33,791 nucleotides of DNA, from positions 1 through 33,791 of the forward strand of contig CANRGC010000018.1 of the NCBI GenBank assembly GCA_947630045.1, read 5' to 3'. Of this stretch, positions 13,391-25,009 are shown piece by piece. Below the pieces are notes generated by a model. That model saw only the letters and a list, made by a program, of their open reading frames with translations, had not been told where the DNA came from and did not search any database. Made by a program: the position numbers and the translations under genes. The stretch comes from Candidatus Gastranaerophilales bacterium. GTDB lineage: Bacteria; Cyanobacteriota; Vampirovibrionia; Gastranaerophilales; Gastranaerophilaceae. Numbering within the stretch: the first letter of the stretch is position 1; every line of letters starts with the position of its first letter.

Positions 13391-14863
13391 TTATGCTTCG
13401 TAATAATTAATAACTTGATTTTGTGCCGTATTTGAAGTATCCGTTGTTCCGTTATATGAATTCGGTGTTGCAAAAGCTGATGTAGTATTGTCTGAATTTG
13501 CGAAAACCGAGTTTAACTTTTCATCAGATATATTATAAATGGATGAGTCACCCTGATAAATTCTGGTTAATGAGTCGTTAAGCCAGTTTGTAACCCCGCC
13601 TGTTACAGGATTTGTCGTAGTATATTGCATTCCGTTTGCAGTGACATTATTTAAATATTCACTCATTAATTCGGTATCTTTCGTAACTGTTCCGTTTGCA
13701 ATATCAGATTGAACCTGTTGTTCAACAAGCGCATTTAATTGTTGAAGCTGAGTCGGATCTGATGCAATTTGTTGGGCAGCTTCTTCGGTTTGTTGTTCTT
13801 GAATTTTTTCAACTTCCGATTTTCCTGTAATTTTTTCGGCAACCTTACCTGCAACCGCAGAACCGACAAAGCCGCCTACGACTTTACCTATACCGCCGCC
13901 TATGAACGTGCCTAAAGGTCCAAAGATTGAACCTATTGCGCTACCAAGAGCCTGACCGACTGCGGAACCGCCCGTCCAACCGACTGCCGTACCAACAGCT
14001 TTGACTGCAGTTTTTCCTATTTGTTTTACACCAGATTCAACGCCACCGGCTTGAAATGCGGGAATTACGTCTGTTATAAGCCCCATTGCGCAATCTATAC
14101 CAACCATAAAGCCTGCGCCTGAGCCTTTTACAATATTTTTAGCTTTTGATAAAATTCCTGTGCCGCCTTTTTTAGCCAGAGCCGTTGCAGCTTCTTTAGC
14201 GCCTGTTTCAGCGGCTGTTGTTGCCGTTTTACCAAAAAGTTTGCTTAAAAATCCGCCGCTCTTTGTTGCCGCAGTTTCAGCTACCTCTTTAGCACCTGTT
14301 TCAGCGGCTTTTGTTGCAGTTTTGCCAAAAAGTTTGCTGAAAAATCCGCCACTTTTTGTTGCCGTAGTTTCAGCTAACTCTTTAGCGCCTGTTTCAGCGG
14401 CATTTGTTGCCGTTTTACCAAAAAGTCTGCTAAAAAATCCGCCGCCTTTTGAAGCTTTTTCAGCAACTTTTTTTGCGCCGCTTTCTTCAAACTCTGAAAA
14501 AACATTTTTTAACTGAGCAATCGGGTTTTTGCTTACAAGAGTTTTTGTTGCTTGACCCGTTTTATCAACAATATATCCGGCTTTATTTAATGTAGCATCT
14601 TTTGCCCATTTAGCCGCTTCAAATCTGTTTGTAAAATATGATGTAATTTTGCCCAAGCCTTTTCCCTTGGACATTGCACCGTTAACAGTTTCATAAGCAT
14701 CTTTTGTAGTACCCAATGCACCCGTCAGAGCAAAAACTCCGGTCATAGGACTGAATACGGATGAAGAAATATCTTGCCCGATAGAAGTTGTTTCTTGTGT
14801 AATCGGGGTGCCGTTTACGTATTTTATGGCGTCAGATATTGCTGATACATTGTTAACAGTCAT
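13391..14863 (-). CDS. Repeat-containing glycine-zipper protein, 490 aa
   Basis: Four regions are visible. Residues 1-139 are Ser/Thr-rich. Residues 140-232 are three copies of a 31-aa repeat (GGFFSKLFGKTATKAAETG, then AKEVAETAATK). Residues ~250-345 form a long Gly/Ala-rich hydrophobic stretch with GxxxG patterns (GSAIGSIFGPLGTFIGGG), a glycine zipper likely to insert in membrane. The Gln/Asn-rich C-terminus has no known domain. AAGGAG lies 7 nt before the ATG, so expression is likely. The repeats encode amphipathic helices. No signal peptide is seen. The family is not known to me; similarity in style to 17343-19337, including the shared tripeptide CAM beside the glycine-rich part, suggests related roles. 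Confidence 0.75.
   Translation of the reverse strand: MTVNNVSAISDAIKYVNGTPITQETTSIGQDISSSVFSPMTGVFALTGALGTTKDAYETVNGAMSKGKGLGKITSYFTNRFEAAKWAKDATLNKAGYIVDKTGQATKTLVSKNPIAQLKNVFSEFEESGAKKVAEKASKGGGFFSRLFGKTATNAAETGAKELAETTATKSGGFFSKLFGKTATKAAETGAKEVAETAATKSGGFLSKLFGKTATTAAETGAKEAATALAKKGGTGILSKAKNIVKGSGAGFMVGIDCAMGLITDVIPAFQAGGVESGVKQIGKTAVKAVGTAVGWTGGSAVGQALGSAIGSIFGPLGTFIGGGIGKVVGGFVGSAVAGKVAEKITGKSEVEKIQEQQTEEAAQQIASDPTQLQQLNALVEQQVQSDIANGTVTKDTELMSEYLNNVTANGMQYTTTNPVTGGVTNWLNDSLTRIYQGDSSIYNISDEKLNSVFANSDNTTSAFATPNSYNGTTDTSNTAQNQVINYYEA
14168..14446 (-). repeat. Three tandem 93-bp in-frame repeats
   Basis: Codons 140-232 of the 490-aa gene consist of three 31-codon units with high identity. 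The unit is a multiple of three, so gain or loss of a copy keeps the frame. An antisense frame stays open here (14160-14516) only because of the repeat. Confidence 0.85.
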
Positions 14864-16062: not shown

Positions 16063-17350
16063 CCCTTCCGTACTTATCATAAGCAAAAGAAAAGAGCTTT
16101 CAGTCAGATATAAAAAGATTTTAAGATTTCTCTCCGCCGAGGTTTCGCTTATTGACAACCTTCATGACGGTTTTAACAAAATTAAAGAAAACGAGTTTGA
16201 ATTTATAATAATTTCAGACACCGTTAAAGAAAATATCCAAGAATTTATAAAGAAAGTTAGGGTTATAACTTATTCTTCAAGACCGACAATTATTGTTGTT
16301 TCAAAGTCGGAAGAAATTTCAGACAGACTTGAGATTTTAAATGCGGGCGCAGACGACTTTTTGTCGGAAGTCATGCAAAACAGAGAGTTTCAGGCAAGAA
16401 TTAATGCCCATATAAGAAGACACACGGAAAGCCTGACAAACCCTATTACAGGCTTTTTAAACGAAAAATTAACAAGAAAAACTTTAAGACAGCTTGTTAA
16501 AAAAGAAGAAAGTTCGTCTGTTATTTTGGTTTCGATTGAAAAAACAAATTATTACAGAGAAATTTACGGTGAAATTGCCTGTGAAAAAGTCTTTCAAACG
16601 CTTGGCGCAATTATATCATCCGCCCTTGCAAAAGAGGATACTATCGGGCATTACAGCCAAAACGAGTTTTTAATTTTTACGGCAAACTATAAGGCGGAAA
16701 AACTTGCGGAATTTATTGTTTTTGCCTTTGATAACGTTTTGAAACGTTTTTATTCCGAATACGACTATCAAAACAATTTTGTTATGTATTCAAGCAACTC
16801 AAAACAAGAAAAAAAGACTTCTCTTATGAATGTAATAGAAGCCGTTGTTGAATATAGCCCTTCAAGATTTAAAACCGCAGAAAGCATTGTTCAATATTTG
16901 TTTAACGTGATAAAACCCCTGAAAAATTCAGGCAAATCAACCTATATAATAGACAGACCAAAGCTTTACGGCAAAGTTGACAATATTGAAAAAAATAAAA
17001 TACTGATTATGGAAAATGATGAGGCTCTCGGGCTTTTAATTGAAACAAGCTGTACAATTAAAGGCTATAAGACAATGGTTTGCCCTTCATATGAAAGCTT
17101 CATGGACTGTTTAAAAGAGTTTGAGCCCAATCTGGTTATTATAGATTACGGCTTAAACAAAATCGGGCTAAAGGTTCTTGATGAGGCAAGAAAATATTAT
17201 TCCGATTTAAATAAAAAAATGCCTTCGGTTATTTTTTCAACAAATATTTTGGATAAAAAAAGCATTTTATCTCACGGGGCTGATTTTTATCTTCCAAAGC
17301 CCTATGATATACAAACCCTAATAAATACGGTTAATGAATTTCTTATTTAA
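16055..17350 (+). CDS. Response regulator with REC, degenerate GGDEF and second REC domain
   Basis: The ATG at 16055 (MYSPSVLIIS) follows AAAGGAG, the strongest ribosome site in this region, giving 431 aa. The first receiver domain (~1-120) has Asp55 in IIISDT but lacks the conserved C-terminal Lys (DDFLSE). Residues ~130-280 resemble a GGDEF fold (NPITGFLNEK, then YREIYGE) but the GGDEF loop reads SQNEF, so it should not make cyclic di-GMP. The second receiver (~315-431) is canonical: Asp364 in LVIIDYG and Lys415 in YLPKPYD. No DNA-binding domain is present, so output is probably protein-protein contact. The upstream kinase is the likely phosphodonor. Its end overlaps the convergent 17343-19337 gene by 8 nt. 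Confidence 0.85.
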   Translation: MYSPSVLIISKRKELSVRYKKILRFLSAEVSLIDNLHDGFNKIKENEFEFIIISDTVKENIQEFIKKVRVITYSSRPTIIVVSKSEEISDRLEILNAGADDFLSEVMQNREFQARINAHIRRHTESLTNPITGFLNEKLTRKTLRQLVKKEESSSVILVSIEKTNYYREIYGEIACEKVFQTLGAIISSALAKEDTIGHYSQNEFLIFTANYKAEKLAEFIVFAFDNVLKRFYSEYDYQNNFVMYSSNSKQEKKTSLMNVIEAVVEYSPSRFKTAESIVQYLFNVIKPLKNSGKSTYIIDRPKLYGKVDNIEKNKILIMENDEALGLLIETSCTIKGYKTMVCPSYESFMDCLKEFEPNLVIIDYGLNKIGLKVLDEARKYYSDLNKKMPSVIFSTNILDKKSILSHGADFYLPKPYDIQTLINTVNEFLI

Positions 17351-19337
17351 CAAATTTGTGAAAAATATTTAAAATACCTTTTTTAGTAAAAATATTTGAA
17401 AGGTTTTCAACCAAGTTTTTATCTTCGCCCAAATCAGAATTGTCGGGGTTTTTTGCGCCTGTTTTCGTATTTTTTTCAGATTTTTTCATGCCTGAATTTT
17501 TGCCGTTTGTTTCAGGCTTGATTTCGGGTTTAATTTCGGGTTTAATTTCGGGTTTAATTTCTGCCTTAGGTTGAGCCGTTATGGGCTTAGCTTCAGGTTT
17601 GATTTCAGGTTTAGCCTTTGGTGTTGTTTTTGTATCTGTCTTAGGCGTTGCTTTTGTATCTGTCTTAGGCGTTGCCTTTGTATCTGTCTTAGGCGTTGCC
17701 TTTGTATCTGCCTTTGGTGTTGCTTTTGTATCAGCCTTTGTATCTGCCTTGGGCGTTGCTTTTGTATCTGTCTTAGGCGTTGCCTTTGTATCAGCCTTGG
17801 GCGTTGCTTTTGTGTCTGTCTTAGGCGTTGCTTTTGTGTCAGCTTTAGGCGTTGTCTTTGTATCTGCCTTTGTGTCAGCCTTGGGTGTTGCTTTTGTATC
17901 AGCCTTTGGTGTTGCTTTTGTATCTGCCTTTGGCGTTGCCTTTGTGTCAGCCTTGGGCGTTGCTTTTGTGTCAGCTTTAGGTGTTGCTTTTGTATCAGCT
18001 TTAGGCGTTGCTTTTGTGTCAGCCTTGGGTGTTGCTTTTGTGTCAGCCTTTGGTGTTGCCTTTGTATCAGCCTTTGGTGTTGCCTTTGTATCAGCCTTTG
18101 GTGTTGCTTTTGTATCAGCTTTAGGCGTTGCCTTTGTATCAGCCTTTGGCGTTGTCTTTGTATCTGCTTTAGGTGTTGCTTTTGTGTCAGCCTTGGGCGT
18201 TGCTTTTGTGTCAGCTTTAGGCGTTGTCTTTGTATCTGCTTTAGGCGTTGCTTTTGTATCTGCCTTTGTGTCAGCCTTTGGCGTTGCTTTTGTATCAGCC
18301 TTGGGCGTTGTCTTTGTGTCAGCCTTTGGCTGAGGTTCTGAATTATCTTTTGCATTTTTAATGCCCGCAGTAATTCCTCCTGCTGCGGCACCTATAAGTC
18401 CGCCGGCTGCGGCAGAATATGCCGTATTTTGAACAAATTCATTTATATTAAATTGTTGATTTTCATCCATTGCGCATTCAATTGCGTAATCACCTGCGCC
18501 CATTGCCGCACCTGCAATTGTTCCGCCTCTAAGCCCTATAATTGCAGCTTTTCCGTTCGTCAGAGCATCCGCCGAATTTTTAGATTTTAACGTGTGTGTC
18601 ATTGTGTATGAAACAGCGCCATTTAATGCACCTTGCAAACCGTCTTTCAATATGGTTTTTCCGTCAAGTGCGTCAGATTTAATATTATTTGTTGCTCTGT
18701 CAATTGTTTTGAGTCCGGCTTTTGCGGCTGCGCCAACACCGAGAGCGGTTGCAAATGAGTTAAATCCAAACTTGGCACCGCCTTTTGTTGCCGCCAATAT
18801 TGAAAGCCCGCCCGCAGCAAGACCTGTTACGGTATTTAGCATTCCTTTTTGTTTTGAAGAATAAGCAAGCAACTTGTTATAAGCGTCATTTACATTCATT
18901 TGACCCGCTTTTGCAGCGTCAATATACTGTTGACATTTTTTACTGCTCAAGCCCAGTCCTGTCATGCCTTTTATAGAATCTATGGTTTTTCCGATAACAC
19001 CTTGCTCATTTTTTGCCGTTTCAAGCAAATATTGCATATTTAAAAGTTTTGCAGCGTCTGTCTGCGGTGTATATATGTCGTTTCTCGGTTGATTTTGCGG
19101 GTTTTGAGCTTGCATACCGTTATTCGGCATAGGCGCAAGCGGAGAAACCTGCATTGTTTGTTGCATATAAGGGGGTGGGTTTATAGCACCGCCGGTAAAA
19201 TAATTAATTCCGGATGAAGGCATAGCTGAAGGGTGCATACCATAGCCAAAACCCATAATCGGAAATGCACGTGAAGCGCCAAACCCAAACGGGCTGCCGC
19301 CTAAATATTTATCCGAACATATACCAAAAAGTGCCAT
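17343..19337 (-). CDS. Glycine-zipper protein with long ADTKATPK repeat tail
   Basis: The 664-aa product has three parts. Residues ~1-90 are Gly/Pro/Met/Asn-rich (FGFGASRAFPIMGFGYG). Residues ~95-330 are Ala/Gly-rich with several hydrophobic GxxxG stretches (LAAGGLSILAATKGG; AAAGGLIGAAAGGITAG) suited to membrane insertion. Residues 339-574 are about 28 ADTKATPK octapeptides plus three half units, followed by EIKP repeats and a Lys-rich end. The tail is strongly basic, unstructured and Pro-spaced, like histone H1-type or wall-spanning linkers. AAAGGG precedes the ATG. No signal peptide or anchor motif is clear. Function is unknown; an envelope-spanning or surface polymer-binding protein fits best, and a nucleic-acid-binding tail is the alternative. 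Confidence 0.75.
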   Translation of the reverse strand: MALFGICSDKYLGGSPFGFGASRAFPIMGFGYGMHPSAMPSSGINYFTGGAINPPPYMQQTMQVSPLAPMPNNGMQAQNPQNQPRNDIYTPQTDAAKLLNMQYLLETAKNEQGVIGKTIDSIKGMTGLGLSSKKCQQYIDAAKAGQMNVNDAYNKLLAYSSKQKGMLNTVTGLAAGGLSILAATKGGAKFGFNSFATALGVGAAAKAGLKTIDRATNNIKSDALDGKTILKDGLQGALNGAVSYTMTHTLKSKNSADALTNGKAAIIGLRGGTIAGAAMGAGDYAIECAMDENQQFNINEFVQNTAYSAAAGGLIGAAAGGITAGIKNAKDNSEPQPKADTKTTPKADTKATPKADTKADTKATPKADTKTTPKADTKATPKADTKATPKADTKTTPKADTKATPKADTKATPKADTKATPKADTKATPKADTKATPKADTKATPKADTKATPKADTKATPKADTKATPKADTKATPKADTKATPKADTKADTKTTPKADTKATPKTDTKATPKADTKATPKTDTKATPKADTKADTKATPKADTKATPKTDTKATPKTDTKATPKTDTKTTPKAKPEIKPEAKPITAQPKAEIKPEIKPEIKPEIKPETNGKNSGMKKSEKNTKTGAKNPDNSDLGEDKNLVENLSNIFTKKGILNIFHKFVK
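17616..18323 (-). repeat. 708-bp minisatellite, 24-bp unit
   Basis: This region encodes residues 339-574 of the gene: 28 units of 8 codons plus three half units of 4 codons (ADTK). Unit variants are A/T at position 1 and A/T at position 5, with synonymous third-base changes scattered. Because 24 is a multiple of three, copy change keeps the frame, and all other frames also stay open, creating long false ORFs on both strands. Confidence 0.95.
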
Positions 19338-19420: not shown

Positions 19421-19459
19421 GAAAAAGCCCCTTGCATTTATTTGCAAGAGGCTTTTTTT
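19421..19459 (-). terminator. Terminator after the OadG-like gene
   Basis: AAGCCCCTTGCA pairs with TGCAAGAGGCTT (one mismatch), with A-runs on the left and T-runs on the right. It lies about 10 nt past the stop codon of 19472-19714 on the minus strand, where the stem is followed by CTTTTTC. It sits upstream of the 17343-19337 gene and separates the two. Confidence 0.75.
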
Positions 19460-19471
19460 ATATTTGATATT

Positions 19472-19714
19472 TTATTTATTCATTTTTAAAATGGCAGCTG
19501 CAATCGCAACGGCAATTTCTTCTTCTCCGCCCGCTGATTTTTTAACGGCAACAAGAGAAGGTGAAGCGACGGGAAAAATTTTGTTTAAATAACGAACTAC
19601 TACGCTCATGATATTCATTGCGAAAATTAATACGGTTAAAAATGCAAAAACGACAAAAAACCCTACGCAAAGAACCGTAACGCCGTCTTGCAGTTTGCTT
19701 ATATCTATATTCAT
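19472..19714 (-). CDS. OadG-like small membrane subunit (sodium-pump decarboxylase gamma family)
   Basis: An 80-aa protein with one N-terminal membrane span (VTVLCVGFFVVFAFLTVLIF), a short polar linker and a C-terminal EEEIAVAIAAAI helix. This matches the OAD_gamma family, whose members anchor the alpha subunit of biotin-dependent decarboxylases to the membrane beta subunit. No alpha, beta or biotin-carrier gene is next to it, so it may be an orphan piece of a complex encoded elsewhere. GGAG lies 11 nt before the ATG. It has its own terminator, so it is a single-gene unit. Confidence 0.75.
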   Translation of the reverse strand: MNIDISKLQDGVTVLCVGFFVVFAFLTVLIFAMNIMSVVVRYLNKIFPVASPSLVAVKKSAGGEEEIAVAIAAAILKMNK

Positions 19715-19781: not shown

Positions 19782-21023
19782 TTAAAGAGAGTTTTTATAG
19801 TTAACAAGGAATTGCCTTGCAACTCTTGGCGCTCTGTTTCCTTTTAAAAGGGCATACGCTTCGGCTTCCCTGAAAAGTTTTGTTTCTTCATATTCTAAAC
19901 CAATTTCATCGGCAAGTCTGCGCACAATTTCAAGATAGTCTTTTTTGTCGGGCGATGAAAAAGTTATTGTAACGCCAAACCTGTCGGAAAGTGAAGCCGC
20001 TTCATCCATTGTATCATTCAAATGAACCTCGCTTCCTTCACGGGAAGTAAAACTTTCTTTTACAATATGCCTTCTGTTGGTTGTGGCATAAATAAGCACG
20101 TTGTCAGGGTTTTTAGCCAATGAACCTTCCAAAACGGCTTTTGCGGAAGCAAACTGGGGGTCATTTTCATCAAAAACAAGGTCATCCAGAAAAATTATAA
20201 ACTTTGAAGGCAACACAGACAACTGTTCATAAAGTTCTTCAAGCGATGAAAGATTGTTTTTTGTAACCTGAATAACTTTTAAGCCCAAGTTTTTATATTC
20301 GTTCAAAATTGCTTTTACAAGAGAAGACTTTCCGCAGCCTCTGTCCCCATATAAAAGAATATTGTTTGCTTTTTGTCCTTTTATAAAAGACAGAGTGTTG
20401 TTTTTGACCGCTTCTTTTTGGAAATCATAAAGTTTTAAATCTGAAAGAGTTATCTTATCAGGCTCACAAACAGGCACAACGTTTAAATTGTTATCGAGTT
20501 TAAATGCGTAAAATTTCGATAAAAGACCGTAACCTATTGTTTTATATGAATTTATAACTTGTTCTTTTGTGAAAAGAAGTTTATAAGAATCAAATTTTGC
20601 AAGTATTTTTGAGTTTGTTTCATTTAATTTATTCGGGTACATAACAAGAATTGAATTTTTAATATCCTCAAAGCTAACGCTTGCAAGCTCACTTAAGGTT
20701 TTTAATTCATTTTCAAAAGTTGTCATGACAAATTCGGGAATTTGTTTGAGATTATTTTTAGCACAGTTTATTGAAACAACATTTTTATCACTCAAGACAA
20801 AATCTCTGACATATTTTGACCAATCACCCATAGAATTTGAAGAATAAAGGTCAGACACAAAATCGGAATATATTTCCAAAACGTTCAAAAAATCATCTTT
20901 TTCATTTATTGTATTTAACAGCAAGGCAAATTTCAAGCCCGCATTATCCGCCAAAAAATTCTTATAAATCGCAAGTGAGGCAAGATTTTTTTGAAAATAT
21001 TCAATATCAAACATTTTGCTCAT
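19782..21023 (-). CDS. DUF815-family AAA+ ATPase
   Basis: 413 aa. The N-terminal half (~1-190) has no known motif. The AAA domain follows DFQKEAVKNN and has Walker A GDRGCGKS (226-233) and Walker B FIIFLDDLVF (~278-287). Further marks are sensor-1 YATTNRRHI and the DUF815 signature SLSDRFGVTITF with NRAPRVARQF at the end. The family resembles DnaA/ClpX-type ATPases; its substrate is unknown. AAGGAC lies 9 nt before the ATG. It is divergent from ilvC, with a ~110-bp intergenic region holding the ilvC promoter. Standing alone, it appears to be a housekeeping ATPase. Confidence 0.88.
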   Translation of the reverse strand: MSKMFDIEYFQKNLASLAIYKNFLADNAGLKFALLLNTINEKDDFLNVLEIYSDFVSDLYSSNSMGDWSKYVRDFVLSDKNVVSINCAKNNLKQIPEFVMTTFENELKTLSELASVSFEDIKNSILVMYPNKLNETNSKILAKFDSYKLLFTKEQVINSYKTIGYGLLSKFYAFKLDNNLNVVPVCEPDKITLSDLKLYDFQKEAVKNNTLSFIKGQKANNILLYGDRGCGKSSLVKAILNEYKNLGLKVIQVTKNNLSSLEELYEQLSVLPSKFIIFLDDLVFDENDPQFASAKAVLEGSLAKNPDNVLIYATTNRRHIVKESFTSREGSEVHLNDTMDEAASLSDRFGVTITFSSPDKKDYLEIVRRLADEIGLEYEETKLFREAEAYALLKGNRAPRVARQFLVNYKNSL

Positions 21024-23198: not shown

Positions 23199-24254
23199 TT
23201 ATGTTTGAGCCGATTTTATTTTTTGGCTTTTATTCAGGTTTTTATCAATTTTATCAGACACAAACGTAGATATAACCGGCAAAATTCCGTAATAGACAAA
23301 GGCAAAAATAAGAGTTGGTCTTAAAATGTTTATTCCTTCAATATATTTTAAAAGTTTCGGATCGTTTTTATTTATTTCGGAAAACTTCTTCAAAAAGCCT
23401 TCGCCGCTTTTTTGAACCGCCTTATCAAGAGAATATCCGAAAAGAATGCTTGCGCCCGTAGAAATCAGGTTGTTATAAATAAGAGGGTTTTTTCTTTCTT
23501 TTTCAATTTTTTTTGAACTTTTTATTCTTAAAGCCGTTGTCGCACTTAACAAAACATCCGTGCCAACCGTCATATTTCTTGCAACGTTAAAGTCATTTTT
23601 GCTCATTTTTTTTGCAAAATCTTGAACTTTCTTGTTGTCTAATATTTTGCCTATTCCTTTTGCCGTTTTATCAATAATTCCCCCCTTAAAAGCAAGATTT
23701 CCGCACACCGGTTCAAAAACCCTGTCATACTTTTGAAAGGCTATATCAGAGTTATTTTTCGGGTTTTTTCGGGAAATTATTTTATCCATAATAACCGGAA
23801 TTAAAGCGACGGTTAAAAGAGATTTTGGAATTGCACTTATAAAGCCTGCGCCCAGCTTGATATTTTGGGTTGCAAATCTGTAATTTTTAGATTTTATAAG
23901 GTCAGACGCACCGTCTTTTAAATTTTCCATCGTTTCTTTTTTAAGATATGAAGCGGGGGTTTTGTTGATTTTTGAAATAGCCTTTTCAACCGGAATGGCT
24001 ATCGCTTCGGTTATTGCAAGTTTCATTATGCCCGAAGCTATTGAGTTTGCCGAAGCGTATTTTTTGTTTTCCCTGTCGGTTTTTGGAGCAAACGATATTG
24101 CAAGCGGGCGAAGGGTCATGGCGGATAAGAATGAAACTCCTGCAGCAAAACTTGCCCCGTGGTCTGAAATTTTTTCCAAACCTTTGAGCAAAAGCTTATT
24201 ATTTAGACAGCCTTTGAAATTCGGGTTATTATTTTTTACTGAATTGACTCTCAT
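23199..24254 (-). CDS. Lineage-type membrane protein with N-terminal NPNFKG motif
   Basis: 351 aa from the ATG at 24254 (MRVNSVKNNNPNFKGCL); the frame is open to a TTG at 24338 but that is unlikely. NNNPNFKG near the N-terminus is a tag I associate with many Gastranaerophilales proteins. The rest is hydrophobic in patches (GASFAAGVSFLSAMTLRPLA; PKSLLTVALIPVIMDKII; NILRPTLIFAFVYYGILPVI) separated by Lys-rich segments (KKIEKERKNP). This suits a multi-span membrane or membrane-associated protein. It is divergent from pnuC, 68 nt away. The function is unknown; paralogues elsewhere in the genome are expected. Confidence 0.7.
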   Translation of the reverse strand: MRVNSVKNNNPNFKGCLNNKLLLKGLEKISDHGASFAAGVSFLSAMTLRPLAISFAPKTDRENKKYASANSIASGIMKLAITEAIAIPVEKAISKINKTPASYLKKETMENLKDGASDLIKSKNYRFATQNIKLGAGFISAIPKSLLTVALIPVIMDKIISRKNPKNNSDIAFQKYDRVFEPVCGNLAFKGGIIDKTAKGIGKILDNKKVQDFAKKMSKNDFNVARNMTVGTDVLLSATTALRIKSSKKIEKERKNPLIYNNLISTGASILFGYSLDKAVQKSGEGFLKKFSEINKNDPKLLKYIEGINILRPTLIFAFVYYGILPVISTFVSDKIDKNLNKSQKIKSAQT

Positions 24255-24322
24255 TTGTCTTTGCCGCTTTTTATAATCATAAATATTTTTGATATTCAAG
24301 AATTTTATTTTACAATTAAAAA

Positions 24323-25009
24323 ATGAAAATTTCGGCAATCGTTAAAAAATATTTAGGAGAATTTAGCGGGCTTGAAACCGTATTTTTCTCTTTTTCGATA
24401 TTATTCGCTCTTTTTTTATCCGTTTATATGAAAGACAACCTTCTGTCAACGATTTCAGCCGTGTGCGGTCTTTCATACACAATTCTTGCGGGCAAGGGAA
24501 GAATTTTTTGTTATTATATCGGAATAACAGGAACTCTCTGTTATTGCGTTTTGTCTTATAAAAACGGTTTTTTCGGGAACTGTCTTTTATACGGACTTTA
24601 TTATTTACCAATGGAAATAACGGGAATTTTCATGTGGAAAAAACACCTGAAAGAAAATTTGACAGAAATTAAAAAAACTTGTCTTATAGCAAAAGAAAGG
24701 CTTTTATACTTTAGTGCGGCTTTGTTTTTAGCTTTTGCGTTTTTTATAATTTTAAAATATTCAAATGACCCTTCCCCTTTTATTGATTCGTTTACAACCG
24801 TTTTTTCCGTCTTGGGGCTTTATTTAACGGTTAGAAGATGTATTGAACAGTGGTATATATGGTTTATTATAAATCTTTTGTCAACAATTATGTGGACAAA
24901 AGCCCTGATAAACGGGGCTATGTGCGCAGGAACGGTTGTTATGTGGCTAATTTACACGATTTTAGCTGTTTATTTTTTATGGGATTGGAAAAAAGAATTA
25001 AAAAATTGA
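24323..25009 (+). CDS. pnuC: Nicotinamide riboside/NMN-type transporter, PnuC family
   Basis: A 228-aa hydrophobic protein with about seven membrane segments. Family marks include the C-terminal WYIWFIINLLSTIMW segment, where W/N residues line the vitamin path, and WLIYTILAVYFLWDWKKE at the end. PnuC proteins import nicotinamide riboside or other B-vitamin precursors by facilitated diffusion, supporting NAD salvage. No NadR or riboswitch is seen next to it, so the substrate is not certain (thiamine or riboflavin relatives exist). No ribosome site is visible before the ATG. rmuC follows 52 nt later. Confidence 0.85.
   Translation: MKISAIVKKYLGEFSGLETVFFSFSILFALFLSVYMKDNLLSTISAVCGLSYTILAGKGRIFCYYIGITGTLCYCVLSYKNGFFGNCLLYGLYYLPMEITGIFMWKKHLKENLTEIKKTCLIAKERLLYFSAALFLAFAFFIILKYSNDPSPFIDSFTTVFSVLGLYLTVRRCIEQWYIWFIINLLSTIMWTKALINGAMCAGTVVMWLIYTILAVYFLWDWKKELKN

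Follow-up and report, generated by a model that had tools for sequence, protein, structure and literature searches.

What would a gut bacterium do with a protein in which a glycine-rich helical region is followed by 28 copies of an octapeptide? The question is raised by a minus-strand gene of Candidatus Gastranaerophilales bacterium (contig CANRGC010000018.1; the whole stretch analysed, 33,791 nucleotides, is called the window hereafter). The open reading frame (ORF) at 17343-19337 starts with ATG and encodes a product of 664 residues. We found that its N-terminal module is homologous across a family in which the C-termini are swapped among toxin-like or regulatory enzymes, and that in the subclade of the window protein the enzyme is absent, its place being taken by a low-complexity spacer that ends in a short helix-like element. 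As dozens of paralogues share the module, followed by an enzyme or by nothing, the layout is one variant within a multi-domain family. The repeat is real and protein-coding, yet no other part of the finding is less general; what generalizes is the module family. We propose, with confidence evenly poised between acceptance and doubt, that the gene product belongs, as a non-enzymatic member, to a polymorphic effector-like family specific to Gastranaerophilales, whose module would insert conditionally into a membrane and whose repeat would act as a flexible spacer. The parts of the gene are as follows.

17343..19337 (-), whole gene for the module protein with repeat tail, 664 residues; orthologues in 8/8 other sampled species of the genus
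19056..19337 (-), leader, residues 1-94, rich in Gly/Phe/Tyr/Pro/Asn/Gln
18849..19055 (-), conserved helical hairpin of the module, residues 95-163 (alignments and AlphaFold2 model)
18342..18848 (-), glycine-zipper helices, residues 164-332, with the conserved core KAG.KT.DRATNN...DA (alignments, model and zipper statistics)
17616..18323 (-), ADTKATPK array, residues 339-574, low-complexity and strongly basic, 28 full and 3 half units
17508..17615 (-), EIKP/EAKP repeats, residues 575-610 (sequence; Tandem Repeats Finder (TRF), 17510-17568)
17346..17429 (-), short C-terminal helix-like element, residues 637-664 (weak conservation among tail-type orthologues)

One N-terminal module with exchanged C-terminal ends

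Comparison of the module proteins revealed one N-terminal module followed by many C-termini: RelA/SpoT-like, ADP-ribosyltransferase, ABC1-kinase, cysteine-protease-like, PTP-like, HD, DnaJ-like and GNAT-like ends, or none. The RelA/SpoT-like ends gave profile matches to solved GTP pyrophosphokinases, and the residues of their R.K, D..G, GY and E.Q.R motifs were invariant across 24 rows. Matches above cut-off were obtained for ABC1 kinase at loci L014 (4e-19) and L104 (3e-14), for ADPrib_exo_Tox in L107 (4e-20), for HD in L109 and for PRTase-CE in L106; the ABC1 ends of L105 and L110, and a calpain-like QGxxGDC motif also present in L106, were read from the sequence. The PTP-like match of L111, accompanied by a CxxGxxRT motif, the calpain match of L103 and the DnaJ-like (J-domain) matches were below cut-off, and the GNAT-like end of L030, which has no Pfam match, is a judgement from sequence alone. 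Short forms measured about 270-340 residues. The window protein showed no toxin domain and no domain match above cut-off, and its tail is low-complexity. In a module tree built by a quick method with Shimodaira-Hasegawa-like approximate likelihood ratio test (SH-aLRT) support values, the 9 tail-type genes formed one clade (98) that grouped with RelA-type members at 83-85. The GNAT-like end was nested within a RelA clade (98), and a second tail type, from another genus (L094-L099), formed a separate clade (99).

Residues 95-332 are an undescribed module composed of a helical hairpin and a glycine zipper. The consensus of the hairpin is NEQGxIGK..D.IK..TGxGLSSKKCQ..I...G....A...I..Y..KQK. The zipper of the window protein contains 9 GxxxG motifs versus 4.4 in shuffled sequences (p 0.02) and 11 small-xxxG-xxx-small motifs versus 4.2 (p 0.0015), and across the family the figures were 10.0 versus 4.6. 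The original prediction had described a membrane-inserting Ala/Gly region: the zipper is statistically real, the hydropathy is only moderate (best 19-residue mean 1.37), which leaves insertion plausible at most on this measure, and overall we regard the module as probably membrane-inserting. It had also placed the protein in no described family, and this proved correct, since residues 95-332 had no match above cut-off in Pfam; there was none in PADLOC or PHROGs, and NCBIfam returned a single match at chance level. The other module members gave only scattered weak Pfam matches (best E 7e-6, ThrE).

The genome collections searched hold one genome per species. Relatives of residues 1-332 were detected in 8/8 other sampled species of the genus and in 18/58 genomes searched, the genome of the window included. 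A profile search with the module recovered half of the Gastranaerophilales genomes (143 of 286), spread over 25 of 50 genera, with up to 9 copies per genome. When about 85,000 species genomes were scanned with a sequence pattern, 59 confirmed loci emerged, mostly labelled Gastranaerophilales, the other labels being several 'bacterium', one Cyanobacteria and one Ruminococcus; the locus with the Ruminococcus label (L032) is close to L047 in sequence and perhaps lies on a mis-binned contig. Matches were found in 62/292 genomes of a sample of the phylum, only one of them outside the family of the window genome, and this was a marginal partial match (E 4e-5). The module is almost confined to gut bacteria belonging to Gastranaerophilales. 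A phage or plasmid origin was rejected, as no relatives occurred among viral contigs, phages or plasmids. The sole other module match in the genome of the window is a 1373-residue frame (G000:C10, L108:942-5060) with an EF-hand-like stretch, a coiled coil and a partial zipper match.

The repeat tail and its orthologues

The array is an unbroken run of 31 units, of which 28 are full octapeptides and 3 are half units (ADTK); it covers exactly 708 bp (18323-17616), and TRF placed it at 17613-18330 with periods of 24/48/72. This confirms the layout first described, in which an in-frame repeat tail follows a glycine-zipper part. The open frames at 17571-18341 (+), 17581-18333 (+) and 17579-18391 (-) are mere by-products of the repeat. 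Length change by slippage had been suggested as well. The DNA was distinct in 24 of the 28 full units, the longest exact internal repeat was 44 bp and neighbouring units were no closer to each other than far-apart units (p 0.17), so slippage is unsupported as a recent process.

Orthologues at the same locus carry low-complexity tails built from unrelated units, most of them rich in Pro/Lys/Glu/Ala. For L002, L003, L005 and L006, three contigs stop within the tail repeat and one tail has an N gap, so that tail lengths need care. Behind the EIKP repeats, the helix-like end of the window protein reads GEDKNLVENLSNIFTKKGILNIFHKFVK. A C-terminal element is clearly common to L004 and L007 (p 0.002), and the match of the window element is weak (p 0.02 versus L006 and L007, p 0.2 versus L004). 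Low-complexity tails made of other units fit a spacer, one of the two roles first envisaged. Since both sequence and charge of the tail vary between species, length and disorder, rather than a motif, look constrained, and the tail appears to be a spacer in which these two properties are maintained.

Such a spacer could also work at home. The module would then anchor in the cell's own inner membrane and the repeat would span the periplasm, with TonB-like mechanics and neither export nor attack. The Pro/Lys/Glu/Ala-rich tails of most orthologues, the glycine-zipper module and a fixed chromosomal locus adjoining an OadG-like membrane protein agree with such an arrangement. We consider it rather unlikely, because the hydropathy is weak for classic transmembrane anchors, Pfam and NCBIfam revealed no TonB or peptidoglycan-binding domain, and the same module carries toxin-like enzymes elsewhere.

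Among the full units, codon positions 1/2/3 hold 230/0/1127 of the differences, indicating that the array is coding and its peptide under selection. Such strong purifying selection argues against a degenerate effector, that is, a protein that lost its enzyme while repeat expansion overgrew the linker between module and cargo and left the tail nearly functionless. Retention of the module with a low-complexity tail in 8/8 other species, and the weak conservation of the C-terminal element, speak against it too. The grouping of the tail clade with RelA-type members, the repeats found at the same linker position in the RelA-type paralogues L041 and L044, and the variation of tail units between species would agree with such a decay, which we judge unlikely overall.

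The other role first envisaged, binding of the basic repeat to an acidic polymer such as nucleic acid or lipopolysaccharide, draws on the net charge of residues 333-574 (about +27 at pH 7) and is highly improbable as the job of the family, since the net charge of the tail is +34 in the window protein versus -13 to +10 in the orthologues (4/9 tails being incomplete at contig ends or an N gap); a species-specific role is possible.

Neighbouring genes and a candidate export route

The features next to the repeat gene are listed below.

19472..19714 (-), OadG-like small membrane protein, conserved upstream neighbour (PF04277, 6e-10; synteny)
19782..21023 (-), AAA ATPase (PF05673/DUF815), conserved upstream neighbour (domain match; synteny)
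19431..19448 (+), near-symmetric terminator-like hairpin separating the repeat gene from the OadG-like gene

The conserved gene row is ilvC, AAA, OadG-like and repeat gene, and a response regulator adjoins it in several species. Given the near-symmetric hairpin, the repeat gene may be a transcription unit of its own. Elsewhere in the window, a second Gly/Ala-rich protein (13391-14863, minus strand) holds 2.8 copies of a 93-bp repeat (14193-14451); it gave a Gly-zipper_Omp match below cut-off and has a relative in L047.

One family of small ORFs was found 0-62 bp downstream of RelA-type genes in 26/26 loci. Within the genus, the genome of the window (G000) and G002 lack the small ORF, and no RelA-type gene was detected in either; the other 7 species carry the small ORF, and a RelA-type gene was seen in 6 of these, the exception (G007) being a fragmented genome. 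Other genera contain weak homologues of the small ORF in genomes without a demonstrated RelA-type gene, and the pairing is therefore unproven as obligate. At one locus (L107) an ADP-ribosylglycohydrolase (E 1e-74) lies near the ADP-ribosyltransferase gene, on the opposite strand. Motifs of the type F[KRSTN]G cluster within the N-terminal 30 residues of ORFs in these loci, as at the N-termini of the small partner ORFs and in window ORF 23199-24338 (-); the motif was counted 19 times in the first two 15-residue bins versus 0-3 in later bins, many of the ORFs coming from one family.

No Sec-type signal peptide is apparent, as judged by eye, in residues 1-94 of the window protein, whose start is similar to GxYPSKYIGGxPYG, the N-terminal start in most orthologues. 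A leader motif, [ST][IVL]F, was present in 34 of 79 module proteins, mostly at residues 30-37 (shuffled mean 4.6, maximum 13), a count inflated by related sequences; its carriers include many enzyme-bearing and some short members. The genome of the window contains FlhA/SctV, FliP, FliF-, FliH- and FliE-like genes and two rod-like genes, and no flagellin was found in it.

G000:C9 (L116:12269-19010), G000:C13:4285-4857, G000:C3:16133-16546; L119, L122: genes of the flagellum-type type III export and rod-like kinds in the genome of the window; second FlhA type alongside flagellins in G154 and G040

Flagellins were present in 2/7 genomes (G154 and G040). In each, one FlhA copy was 54% identical to that of the window genome and another 81-84% identical over the first 250-260 residues. 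Because two FlhA types coexist in flagellin-bearing genomes, the FlhA of the window genome belongs to a separate conserved system. Partial flagella gene sets have been judged unable to encode a functional flagellum (PMC4040986), and no paper was found that gives the flagellum-type genes of Gastranaerophilales a role in secretion. Type IV secretion was rejected as a route, with no VirB4 in 7 genomes. No contractile tail sheath was found in the genome of the window, and G006 and G008 gave two matches below cut-off. We hypothesize that the flagellum-type type III genes, occurring without flagellin, are a candidate export route for module proteins. In a fuller picture, which we consider rather unlikely, gut Gastranaerophilales would use a conserved flagellum-type type III apparatus without a filament, present beside true flagella in motile members, to export a large, lineage-specific polymorphic effector family built on one glycine-zipper module, and the window protein would serve this system as a non-enzymatic translocator or tether.

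According to the effector-like reading, the module would be soluble after synthesis and then insert conditionally, via its glycine zippers, into a membrane, either that of a target cell or that of the own envelope. Enzyme-bearing members would deliver their cargo through this membrane; the repeat of the window protein, 236 residues long, would be a flexible spacer, whose length and disorder matter, keeping the C-terminal helix off the membrane. Several observations weigh against this. The window protein lacks the [ST][IVL]F motif. No partner gene adjoins its gene, nor is any secretion gene linked to it, export being inferred and not demonstrated. The ABC1-kinase and J-domain cargos could act within the producing cell. 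The AlphaFold2 model of the module is all-helical and only moderate (mean predicted local distance difference test (pLDDT) 72, predicted template modelling score (pTM) 0.51), and a Foldseek search of this model against the PDB gave a best match of E 0.52 and no informative fold. With export and activity both putative, we regard the effector-like reading as about evenly balanced.

Gastranaerophilales are non-photosynthetic cyanobacterial relatives that live in animal guts and are described mainly as fermenting commensals. If the reading is true, a lineage-restricted family with toxin-like ends, accompanied by small or antagonist genes as partners, would provide these bacteria with a means of affecting neighbours or the cells of a host. 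The module family also makes it testable whether partial flagella gene sets form a working export apparatus.

Comparison with known systems

The family combines a constant module and exchanged ends with known toxin-type C-terminal domains. Polymorphic toxin systems (PMC3482391) likewise have a constant N-terminal module, exchanged toxin-like C-terminal domains (RelA/SpoT-like, ADP-ribosyltransferase and phosphatase-like in our family) and small or antagonist genes adjacent. Unlike in those systems, the N-terminal module matches no family searched, and the window member has neither toxin domain nor partner gene.

Tde1, a DNase effector of the type VI secretion system, requires an N-terminal glycine zipper to cross the target membrane (PMC10240207). 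Module proteins resemble it in having GxxxG repeats ahead of the cargo, a likeness of layout; the module differs from Tde1 in its size, about 235 residues, and in the helical hairpin in front.

In TonB-type proteins a low-complexity, extended Pro/Lys/Glu spacer follows a membrane-associated part, and the window protein has a comparable extended spacer behind its own. In contrast to TonB, no TonB domain was found in Pfam or NCBIfam, and the spacer sequence is replaced wholesale between species.

Effectors of type III secretion carry a non-Sec leader and effector-type C-terminal enzymes, with a small gene adjoining. By analogy, the module family would resemble them in its apparently non-Sec leader, its effector-type enzymes, the small gene beside the RelA type and the flagellum-type export core encoded in the genome.
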